A DNA stretch of 64,000 nt from Methanothermobacter tenebrarum (lineage in GTDB: Archaea; Methanobacteriota; Methanobacteria; Methanobacteriales; DSM-23052), in NCBI RefSeq assembly GCF_003264935.1, contig NZ_QLOE01000004.1, forward strand, positions 62,001 to 126,000, written 5' to 3'. A program made the position numbers and the translations under genes. Below, in pieces: positions 30,699 through 33,245 of the stretch. How positions within the stretch are numbered: position 1 is the first letter of the stretch; every line of letters starts with the position of its first letter. Below the pieces are notes generated by a model that worked only from the letters and a program-made list of their open reading frames with translations, was not told the origin of the DNA and searched no databases.

Positions 30699-31286
30699 TC
30701 ACCCATTTAGGAGGAAGTTTTTGAGTATTGCTTTTCCATAGGCTGTTCCTATGGATTCTGGGTGGAATTGTAAGCCATAGATTGGATATTTTCTGTGTTT
30801 TATTGCCATGATTATGCCATCTGCGGACCATGCTATTATTTCGATTTCTTGTGGCCTTTGGAGTGGGTCGCATGCGATTGAGTGGTAGCGGGTGGCTTTG
30901 ATGGGATTTGGAATATTCTCGAAGATGTGGGTGCCATTGTGGAATATTGTTGTTATTTTTCCGTGTGTGGGTTTTGTGTAGCATAGTTTGCCGCCGAAGG
31001 CTGCGTATATTCCTTGGTGTCCAAGGCAGACGCCTAATATCGGTTTGTTTTTGAACTTTTTGATTATTTCATGGCAGAATCCGAAGTCTTTTTTGTTTAG
31101 GGGGTTGCCCGGGCCTGGTGATATTATTATGCTTTTGATTTTTGATTTATTGAGGTTTAGGAGTTTTTTGTCGTCGTTTCTCAGCACTTTGAGGGTTTGT
31201 TTCATGTTTTTTTCTTTCATGATTTCTCCGATGAGTTGGTGGAGGTTGTATGTGAAGGAGTCATAGTTGTCGATTAGGAGTATCAT
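30699..31286 (-). CDS. trpG: Anthranilate synthase glutaminase subunit
   Basis: 195 residues, class I glutamine amidotransferase. The nucleophile Cys lies in GVCLGHQG (near 80); the His-Glu pair is in LQFHPES (near 172). It supplies ammonia to TrpE. It overlaps the trpE stop by 4 bp. Confidence 0.97.
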   Translation of the reverse strand: MILLIDNYDSFTYNLHQLIGEIMKEKNMKQTLKVLRNDDKKLLNLNKSKIKSIIISPGPGNPLNKKDFGFCHEIIKKFKNKPILGVCLGHQGIYAAFGGKLCYTKPTHGKITTIFHNGTHIFENIPNPIKATRYHSIACDPLQRPQEIEIIAWSADGIIMAIKHRKYPIYGLQFHPESIGTAYGKAILKNFLLNG

Positions 31287-32638
31287 CTTTTTTCACCTGC
31301 CATTTTGAGTGAATATATAAGTGCTTTTGCCTTGTTTTCACATTCTAGAAATTCTTTTTCTGGTATTGAATCGTATACTATGCCTGCGCCTGCTTGTATT
31401 TTTCCTTCGGTTCCTTGGGTTATGAGGGATCGTATTGTGATTGCAAAATCAGCATTTCCGTTTAATGAGAAGTAGCCTAGGGCTCCTGCATATGCACCTC
31501 TGGGTGTGGCTTCTATTTCATCTATTATCTCCATTGCGCGTATTTTAGGGGCTCCTGTAACCGTCCCCGCGGGGAATACTGATGATAGAGCGTCGATTGC
31601 TGTTTTGTCTTTTCTGAGTTTTCCTTTTACATGGGAGATGATGTGTTGTACGTGTGAGAATTTTTTTATACTCATGTACTCTTTGACTTTGACTGATCCG
31701 TATTTGCTGATTTTTCCTAGGTCGTTTCTTGCAAGGTCTACTAGCATTAGGTGTTCTGCTAATTCTTTTTCGTCTGATAAAAGTTCGGCTGCGATTTTTT
31801 TGTCTTCTTTTTCGTTTGATCCTCTTGGGCGCGTTCCTGCGATGGGGAATGTTTCCACGTTCCTGTTTTCAACTCTTACAAGCATTTCTGGGCTGGAGCC
31901 TATGATCTCCCTTTCACCTAATTTGAGGTGGTACATGTATGGTGAGGGGTTAACTTTTCTCAAGGCTTCGTAGAAGTGGAGTTTGTTGCCTTTTATTTTG
32001 TATTTATGGGCGTTTGATATTACTGCTTGGAATATTTCTCCCTTGTTTATCCTTTCTTTTGTTTCTAGGACCATTTCTTCGTATTGGTCCTTGGAGAAGA
32101 TTCTTCCTTTGTATTTGAATGAGAGTTTATTTTGGTCTTGGGGGTTATCCTTTGAGGCTTCTTTTATGTGGTCTAGTCGGTTTTCTGAGAGTGTTATGTA
32201 GGTGCATTTGCCTGTGAGGTGGTTGAATTTTATCCCATCAAGAAATAGGCCGAATTCGAAATCTGGGAAATCGGGGTTTTTTATGGGGATTTTGTCGAAG
32301 AATCTTGCGGATTCGTATGAGATGTATCCTACGAGTCCGCCTGCGAAGCCTTTGGATTTGTTTTTTTCTTTTAGGAAATTTTTTATGATGTCGAATGGGT
32401 TTTTAGTGTGTATTTTTTCTGTGTCGTCTTTTGTTTCTATTTCGAGGATGTTTGATTTTGCCCTGATTATTAAGATGGGGTTGAAGCCTATGAATGAGTA
32501 TCTTGCGAGTCCTGTGTCGCTTTCCATTGATTCTAGGAGAAAAACAGAATCATTATCATGGTATAATTGCTTGAATAGTTCGAATGGATCTTTTAAGTCG
32601 AGTTTGAATGTTTTAGGGGTTTTTCCAAAAGTATTCAC
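31283..32638 (-). CDS. trpE: Anthranilate synthase component I
   Basis: 451 residues; converts chorismate and ammonia to anthranilate. The chorismate-binding domain has GTRPRGSNEKED, LVDLARNDLG and GTVTGAPKIRAME. An N-terminal LLESMESDTG (near 34-43) resembles the tryptophan feedback-binding LLES motif, so allosteric inhibition is expected. The only workable start in this frame is GTG 32638, because a stop lies five codons upstream. The best ribosome-binding site (AAGGAG, 32657-32662) is 18 nt away and instead fits an out-of-frame ATG at 32648 (see upstream ORF). Confidence 0.94.
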   Translation of the reverse strand: MNTFGKTPKTFKLDLKDPFELFKQLYHDNDSVFLLESMESDTGLARYSFIGFNPILIIRAKSNILEIETKDDTEKIHTKNPFDIIKNFLKEKNKSKGFAGGLVGYISYESARFFDKIPIKNPDFPDFEFGLFLDGIKFNHLTGKCTYITLSENRLDHIKEASKDNPQDQNKLSFKYKGRIFSKDQYEEMVLETKERINKGEIFQAVISNAHKYKIKGNKLHFYEALRKVNPSPYMYHLKLGEREIIGSSPEMLVRVENRNVETFPIAGTRPRGSNEKEDKKIAAELLSDEKELAEHLMLVDLARNDLGKISKYGSVKVKEYMSIKKFSHVQHIISHVKGKLRKDKTAIDALSSVFPAGTVTGAPKIRAMEIIDEIEATPRGAYAGALGYFSLNGNADFAITIRSLITQGTEGKIQAGAGIVYDSIPEKEFLECENKAKALIYSLKMAGEKR

Positions 32639-32648
32639 TTCCTTGCAT
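32613..32648 (-). other. Candidate 11-codon upstream ORF overlapping the trpE start
   Basis: ATG 32648 has an AAGGAG ribosome-binding site at an ideal 8-nt spacing. It encodes MQGSEYFWKNP and stops (TAA) at 32613, 26 nt inside trpE, in a different frame from trpE. It includes one Trp codon next to aromatic codons. It could couple trpE translation to that of a leader, or sense tryptophan. It might also be chance; no conservation data are available to me. Confidence 0.4.
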
Positions 32649-32668
32649 GGTTATCGCTCCTTGTGGTC

Positions 32669-32674
32669 TGTACA
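32669..32674. promoter_or_regulatory. TRP box 1 (TGTACA), TrpY operator
   Basis: Palindromic TGTACA, the known TrpY recognition sequence in M. thermautotrophicus. It lies about 30 bp before the trpE start, near the expected trpE transcription start, so binding would block the operon. Confidence 0.7.
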
Positions 32675-32696: not shown

Positions 32697-32710
32697 ACTA
32701 TTTAAATCTT
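32697..32710. promoter_or_regulatory. Shared trpY/trpE TATA region
   Basis: ATTTAAAT (about 32699-32707) is readable as a TATA element on both strands. It lies between the two TGTACA boxes, with an AGTACT palindrome (32694-32699) next to it. Its distance to each TRP box matches the usual TATA-to-start spacing. Confidence 0.5.
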
Positions 32711-32723
32711 ACTTGTATAATAA

Positions 32724-32729
32724 TGTACA
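32724..32729. promoter_or_regulatory. TRP box 2 (TGTACA), TrpY operator
   Basis: Second TGTACA, 55 bp from box 1 and 13 bp before the trpY ATG, near the predicted trpY transcription start. It suggests autoregulation of trpY as in its relative. Confidence 0.7.
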
Positions 32730-32741
32730 TTGGTGATTTTA

Positions 32742-33245
32742 ATGTGGGAAAAAATAAAACACAAATTCCAAAAGTACCCAGCAAGAATAAACGTGGCGAA
32801 AAAAATCGTAGAACTCGGACTCCGAGTAGGCCCTAACGGGAAAATATACTGTGGAGACGTGGAAATAAGTGACATGGCCCTTGCAAGAGCCGCCAACGTC
32901 GACAGAAGAACAATAAGAGCAACCACACAAGTCATACTACAAGACAAAGACCTAAAAAAAATCTTCGAAAGCATAATACCAGCAGGAGCCCTCCTCAAAG
33001 AAACAGCGAAAAATCTTGAACTTGGAGTGGTTGAAATAGAAGCAAACGCCAACAACCCAGGCATATTAGCAAAAGCCGCAACCCTAATAGCCTCAAAAGG
33101 TATAAGTATAAGACAAGCACATGCAAGCGACCCAGAACTTGAAGAAAACCCAAAACTGACAATTATAACAGAAAAACCTATCCCAGGCGATCTCCTCAAA
33201 AAATTCCTAAAAATAGAAGGAGTAAAAAGAGTTTCAATATACTAA
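32742..33245 (+). CDS. trpY: Tryptophan-responsive transcriptional regulator TrpY
   Basis: 167 residues. An N-terminal helix-turn-helix (about 15-70; MALARAANVDRRTIRATTQVI) is followed by an ACT-like C-terminal domain (VEIEANANNPGILAKAATLI...) that likely binds tryptophan. The M. thermautotrophicus homologue represses trpEGCFBAD and itself through TGTACA boxes. It is divergent from trpE. I chose ATG 32742, four bases after GGTGAT; a TTG at 32730 is in frame but unsupported. Its stop overlaps the convergent hypC stop. Confidence 0.92.
   Translation: MWEKIKHKFQKYPARINVAKKIVELGLRVGPNGKIYCGDVEISDMALARAANVDRRTIRATTQVILQDKDLKKIFESIIPAGALLKETAKNLELGVVEIEANANNPGILAKAATLIASKGISIRQAHASDPELEENPKLTIITEKPIPGDLLKKFLKIEGVKRVSIY

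Follow-up and report, generated by a model that had tools for sequence, protein, structure and literature searches.

The trpE start region of Methanothermobacter tenebrarum raises the question of where ribosomes enter this gene, and what a small overlapping ORF with a single Trp codon does there. Bacteria are well known to sense amino acids at the level of translation. As regulators of archaeal trp operons, the literature that we found describes transcription factors only (TrpY in Methanothermobacter, TK0271 in Thermococcus). The first-pass annotation of this DNA had suggested that the small ORF could add a Trp-codon translational control above TrpY repression, by translational attenuation or by reinitiation. 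We consider these two mechanisms along with the following alternatives: a +1 frameshift from the small ORF into trpE, initiation of trpE at its own GTG, and several readings in which the Trp codon senses nothing.

The window, that is, the whole analysed stretch of 64,000 nucleotides, carries the trp operon on the minus strand in the order trpE, G, C, F, B, A, D (gene names from translations). The trpE gene (31283..32638, minus strand) encodes a protein of the TrpE-arch class with 451 aa and no Trp residue; the relatives' TrpE proteins of the same class score above the TIGR01820 cut-off. Its first possible start is GTG 32638 (32638-32636), since the trpE frame has a stop five codons upstream and no start between; the codons preceding the GTG in this frame are CCA TGC AAG GAA. 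The small ORF (32613..32648, minus strand; ATG 32648-32646, stop 32615-32613) reads ATG CAA GGA AGT GAA TAC TTT TGG AAA AAC CCC TAA and encodes MQGSEYFWKNP, the sole Trp being codon 8, and the trpE frame is +1 relative to it. The Shine-Dalgarno (SD) sequence AAGGAG (32657..32662, minus strand) is situated 8 nt 5' of the small-ORF ATG and 18 nt 5' of the trpE GTG, and the only well-placed SD of the operon belongs to ATG 32648. On rereading of the minus strand, the SD, the gaps, the ATG and the peptide given in the first-pass annotation all proved right, as did its statement that trpE can begin only at this GTG.

The operon follows a divergent promoter shared with the repressor gene trpY (32742..33245, plus strand; MWEKIKHKFQK...), which is adjacent in all genomes with this layout (37/37, see below). 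The TATA box of the trpE promoter, TTTAAATA (32699..32706, minus strand), precedes the ATG by 49-61 nt in most genomes, a distance that would place the 5' end of the mRNA only a few tens of nucleotides ahead of the start codon. A TRP box TGTACA, a putative TrpY site (32724..32729, minus strand), is located upstream of the TATA box, and a second TGTACA (32669..32674, minus strand) is found near the likely transcription start, a place where the other genomes do not have it. With a divergent trpY and two TGTACA sequences, the window shows the layout of a TrpY-regulated trp operon; only some of the 37 genomes have an exact TGTACA at most 160 nt upstream. TrpY represses trpEGCFBAD, acting on transcription through DNA, and binds TRP boxes (PMC6737238). 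The repressor gene, too, has a Trp codon, at codon 2: TrpY starts with Met-Trp in the window (ATG TGG, 32742-32747) and in 18/18 clearly read starts outside genus g5. A second promoter with TGTACA, 84% identical to the trpY-trpE promoter, drives trpB2 (G000:C6 ~70757-70804). The same device was rejected for this other TRP-box promoter of the genome, which is followed by a plain SD and ATG with no small ORF.

The window TrpE was searched against 151 genomes of the order Methanobacteriales, and the genomes with a close TrpE (families f1, f2, f3; genera g1, g2, g5, g8, g9, g11, g19) were then read upstream. The pattern ATG-N6-[AGT]GTGAAT[GA][TC]TTTTGG is present in 37 genomes from three families and seven genera, and every genome with this TrpE class, a divergent trpY and this layout carries the motif ATG-N6-N-GTGAAT-RY-TTTTGG (37/37). 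It encodes M-x-x-[SGC]-E-[CY]-F-W in the small frame and VN[VIT]FG in the trpE frame. The ATG and codons 4-8 of the small ORF are conserved, the GTG is invariant (37/37), the ATG-GTG spacing is fixed, and trpE is always in the +1 frame (37/37). The first-pass annotation had asked for a short ORF with a Trp codon conserved across Methanobacteriales, and the codon is indeed kept in every relative having the ORF; it had also named loss of the ORF in relatives, or an ATG in frame with trpE, as grounds for dropping the idea, and neither holds across the 37 genomes. The small ORF ends at no conserved position, its stop falling from +14 to +68 nt after the GTG. The shortest form is seen in G149, where TGA directly follows the Trp codon (MSRSECFW*), and in G028 the trpE match is split, with an in-frame TAG inside, yet the leader motif is intact. 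Four of the 37 genomes have a separate ATG in the trpE frame, 6 nt before the GTG.

A pattern search in 152 genomes found the motif once in each of the 37, at trpE, and gave two further matches, both with in-frame stops, which are probably due to chance. The motif is absent in two genomes of genus g3 (G017, G005) despite a TrpE of the same class. The distant TrpE class (~45% identity, other genera) has ordinary starts, and no such ORF was found among the ~16 members listed. Given a single origin of the element, the 37 genomes are not 37 independent tests. We also scored, in 464 kb of the same genome, the combination of a first start other than ATG, no SD, and overlap by another frame whose ATG lies upstream and has a strong SD; among 375 long ORFs the full combination is unique to trpE. 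Three other genes were weak candidates for the same layout (two inspected, one judged by translation), and all three resemble noise from start calling. The small ORF is real and more than a chance reading frame: chance is ruled out by its conservation, its occurrence once per genome, the uniqueness in 464 kb and the synonymous-site test described below, and a sequencing error or frame slip in the window is ruled out by the agreement of the 37 genomes.

An F-G pair with Phe encoded by TTT in trpE yields the out-of-frame TGG automatically, hence the argument for constraint in two frames rests on frozen synonymous sites and on the dispensability of F-G. We aligned 34 full-length trpE genes by codon (448 gapless columns) and observed fully conserved third bases only in codons 1-4, two Glu codons and four Met codons. 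On the TrpE tree there are no third-base changes at codons 2, 3 and 4, against a median of 8 overall and 6 in columns with an invariant residue (2-7 in the other nine invariant Phe columns, 4-6 in the other four Asn columns). Codon 3 encodes Val, Ile or Thr, so that its third base is free as far as TrpE is concerned, yet it is always T, which is also where the small-ORF Phe codon begins. Codon 4 is always TTT though TTC would serve TrpE, and TTT preserves TGG. TrpE does not need F-G, because the part homologous to solved TrpE starts only at residue 17, residues 6-16 are variable in both sequence and length, and F-G is lacking at the N-terminus of the outgroups (G151 and g3); residues 1, 2, 4 and 5 are invariant. 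In the small frame, codon 6 alternates between UGU and UAU several times, and Phe and Trp never change. Codon 4 of the small ORF varies (S/G/C) while the GTG and the following AA stay frozen, which favours a role for the GTG itself.

The base 3' of TGG is C in 31/37 genomes. Correspondingly, codon 5 of trpE is GGC in 28/34 genes, compared with 1-12 of 34 in the other 19 invariant Gly columns, and in five AT-rich genomes the gene has no other GGC. The small-ORF codon opened by this C encodes Gln, Arg, His or Leu. Neither protein requires the C, and since the small-ORF residue varies at this place, the C is a signal at the nucleotide level. The conserved block GTGAAT-RY-TTTTGG-(C) (32624..32638, minus strand; A for C in the window's genus) is frozen in both frames. 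By sequence comparison, the element is conserved, doubly constrained and specific to trpE.

We then consider how ribosomes would read it. Over the 37 genomes the median SD spacing is 8 to the ATG and 18 to the GTG, and the GTG has no SD of its own, as judged by anti-SD duplexes computed with the textbook archaeal anti-SD tail rather than with the 16S of these genomes. This bears out the earlier expectation that ribosomes should load on the small ORF first. The idea of a Trp-codon control above TrpY fared well in its general form, given the conserved Trp codon in 37 genomes, and poorly in the mechanisms named for it. Classical attenuation needs RNA structure, and there is no conserved structure around or downstream of the element (fold z ~0, 37 sequences) and no match to the Rfam covariance models up to E = 1, hence no T-box or other riboswitch match; attenuation through RNA structure and a known riboswitch are not supported by these two results. 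Transcription attenuation by a leader peptide is not indicated either, as no alternative hairpins or terminator were found, and the small ORF overlaps trpE, so that a terminator would have no space. Reinitiation requires a stop close to the GTG, and no short stop-to-GTG distance is conserved in the 37 genomes.

The mechanism that we favour is a +1 shift at the site TTT_TGG_A of the window (32624..32630, minus strand; TTT_TGG_C in 31/37), proposed from its sequence, its conservation and its likeness to known +1 sites. Its parts are the P-site Phe codon TTT (32630-32628), the hungry Trp codon TGG (32627-32625) and the +1 codon GGA/GGC (32626-32624). TTT_TGG is invariant in the 37 genomes, TTT can re-pair with an overlapping TTT at +1, and the slowness of TGG would be conditional. 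Ribosomes most probably load at the SD, start at ATG 32648 and translate M-x-x-S-E-[CY]-F. When the Phe-tRNA holds TTT in the P site, TGG would stand in the A site; no other Trp codon lies on the way into trpE. If Trp-tRNA is ample, TGG would be read and translation would terminate in the small frame with no TrpE made; if it is scarce, the ribosome would wait and the Phe-tRNA would slip one base onto the overlapping TTT. GGC or GGA would then enter as the next codon, in the trpE frame, giving a product MxxSE[CY]F-G..., and the TrpE made would restore Trp, closing the loop beneath TrpY repression. The GTG may supply a low basal level of TrpE, or GTGA may act as a weak internal SD.

A further consideration is the sign of the response. 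A ribosome halted at TGG would cover the GTG, and a leader acting by stalling would thus reduce TrpE under Trp shortage, which is the wrong sign. A TTT-to-TTT slip moves the ribosome into trpE, so that TrpE would rise just when decoding of TGG slows down. Compared with attenuation or reinitiation, a +1 shift at TTT_TGG_C is the better fit, and it would explain why the ATG has its SD, why trpE lies in the +1 frame, why TTTTGG is frozen and followed by C, and why the stop of the small ORF is unconstrained. By itself it leaves the frozen GTGAA unexplained. Like a +1 cassette, the locus has a short ORF that possesses a good start of its own and overlaps a long +1-frame ORF (37/37), TTT_TGG, and conserved synonymous sites; starts in the trpE frame that would bypass the shift are also present (the GTG in 37/37, an ATG in four). 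Because these in-frame starts are available, we do not file the element as a proven +1 frameshift cassette. Further points against the shift are that the GTG with the following AA is as frozen as the shift site, that the apparent trpE start of G151 can be aligned with the GTG, and that the C is replaced by A in the window's genus. Whether the small ORF together with trpE constitutes a +1 frameshift cassette sensing charged tRNA-Trp is, on balance, very nearly an even question; the stricter claim, that a shortage of charged Trp-tRNA drives the shift at UUU_UGG_C as the main route to TrpE, hence to anthranilate synthase, with neither RNA structure nor a protein sensor, is tentative and falls somewhat short of even.

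The main rival is that trpE starts at the GTG, and the translated small ORF captures ribosomes and so limits or regulates initiation there, either by competition or occlusion, or because ribosomes stalled at the Trp codon drop a short peptidyl-tRNA and restart at the nearby GTG. The outgroups bear on this. G151, G017 and G005 have a trpE of the same class that lacks ATG, GTG and TTG near its 5' end, and the best-placed start after the SD is AUC in G151 and AUU in the two g3 genomes, at good SD spacing. This suggests a non-canonical trpE initiation in these genomes, and suggests that weak trpE initiation may be general in this TrpE class. The apparent start of G151 (INV...) aligns with the GTG position (VNV...), and where an in-frame ATG precedes the GTG, as in four genomes, direct initiation of TrpE without a shift is possible. 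An invariant GTG at a fixed distance from the ATG likewise speaks for a GTG start, and constraint on both peptides would account for every frozen position from GTG to TGG. It would not account for the C after TGG; moreover, the GTG lacks an SD of its own, has never been improved to ATG, and would be covered by a ribosome stalled at TGG, so that plain stalling would act in the wrong direction. We consider such a GTG start with a regulatory leader unlikely, and rank it below the frameshift reading, which is roughly in balance.

It is quite improbable that the small ORF only damps trpE translation at a set ratio, through constitutive +1 shifting or a leaky GTG, with no sensing of Trp. Weak starts do occur in the related outgroups without any Trp codon, and TrpY already supplies Trp sensing, but the invariant TGG stands beside a slippery codon upstream of a Trp gene, and the TrpE product has no Trp residue in nearly all of the 34 full-length cases. 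Still less probable is that the block GTGAATRTTTTTGGC is a protein or RNA binding site and the ORF secondary; conservation at the nucleotide level across the whole block, C included, would agree with this, whereas the conserved ATG and good SD at a fixed distance and frame would not, and the block is unlike the TGTACA TRP box and shows no Rfam match or structure. Equally improbable is the ordinary explanation of a conserved TrpE N-terminus VNVFG with the ORF as its by-product. The invariant residues 1, 2, 4 and 5 and the automatic TGG speak for it; however, the frozen synonymous sites of codons 2-4 and the preference for a rare codon at codon 5 already disfavour it, the ATG and SD are conserved as well, and this N-terminus lies outside the part homologous to the solved TrpE and differs in the outgroups.

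The proposed frameshift can be compared with several known systems. TTT_TGG_C is built like known +1 shift sites, namely the RF2 site CUU_UGA_C, where the C is nearly always conserved and UUU_U is used in a minority of species, and the Ty1 site CUU_AGG_C; UUU_Ynn is especially prone to +1 shifting in bacteria (PMC5009743). As in RF2 (prfB), there is a short 5' ORF, a slippery P-site codon before a slow sensing A-site codon, a conserved C after the slow codon, and a main gene in the +1 frame (PMC5009743). Unlike RF2, whose sensor is a stop codon with the release factor, the trpE element would sense through a sense Trp codon and Trp-tRNA; it is archaeal, has a possible alternative start (GTG) inside the ORF, and shows no obvious internal SD at the short RF2 spacing, the purine-rich N[AG]NAGTGA being at a longer one. 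It shares with Ty1 a slow sense codon, a heptamer ending in C and the Gly codon GGC as the +1 codon (PMC5009743); the rare tRNA of Ty1 fixes a set ratio, whereas the charging of the trpE tRNA would vary with Trp. In hungry-codon frameshifting in bacteria (Gallant), shortage of one aminoacyl-tRNA likewise promotes a slip at its codon, but that shifting is known from experiments and as an error. Like the leaders of bacterial trp/phe attenuation, the small ORF has a codon of the pathway's own amino acid; unlike them, it overlaps the gene, has one Trp codon and comes without a terminator or antiterminator, and frameshifting at pheL was judged incidental (PMC5009743). Finally, TrpY/TRP-box repression of trpEGCFBAD concerns the same operon and the same signal (Trp), but it acts on transcription at the DNA (PMC6737238), while the small-ORF element sits in the start of the coding sequence.

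The literature that we found, in a search that did not extend to the primary trp-operon papers, makes no mention of the small ORF. A review of archaeal recoding lists a single cellular gene with -1 shifting, and +1 shifting only in a virus, and mentions neither tryptophan nor Methanothermobacter (PMC8211752). The review cited for the +1 sites knows of no case in which hungry-codon frameshifting serves to make trans-frame proteins specific to starvation (PMC5009743). For M. thermautotrophicus a genetic system is available that includes a thermostable reporter (PMC8609365), and the frameshift question is therefore directly testable.

Taken by itself, the conserved Trp-codon ORF at the trpE start of 37 genomes points to a second layer of control at the level of mRNA. 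If the frameshift is true, the TrpE N-terminus would be mis-annotated in this group, and the element would fill a gap named by the recoding review, a case of hungry-codon frameshifting that yields a useful product under starvation (PMC5009743). Judging by the reviews found, it would be the first +1 programmed frameshift encoded in an archaeal chromosome, and also the first case in which hungry-codon shifting serves to produce a biosynthetic enzyme. The trp operon would then have its translation set directly by the Trp supply, at the decoding site itself.
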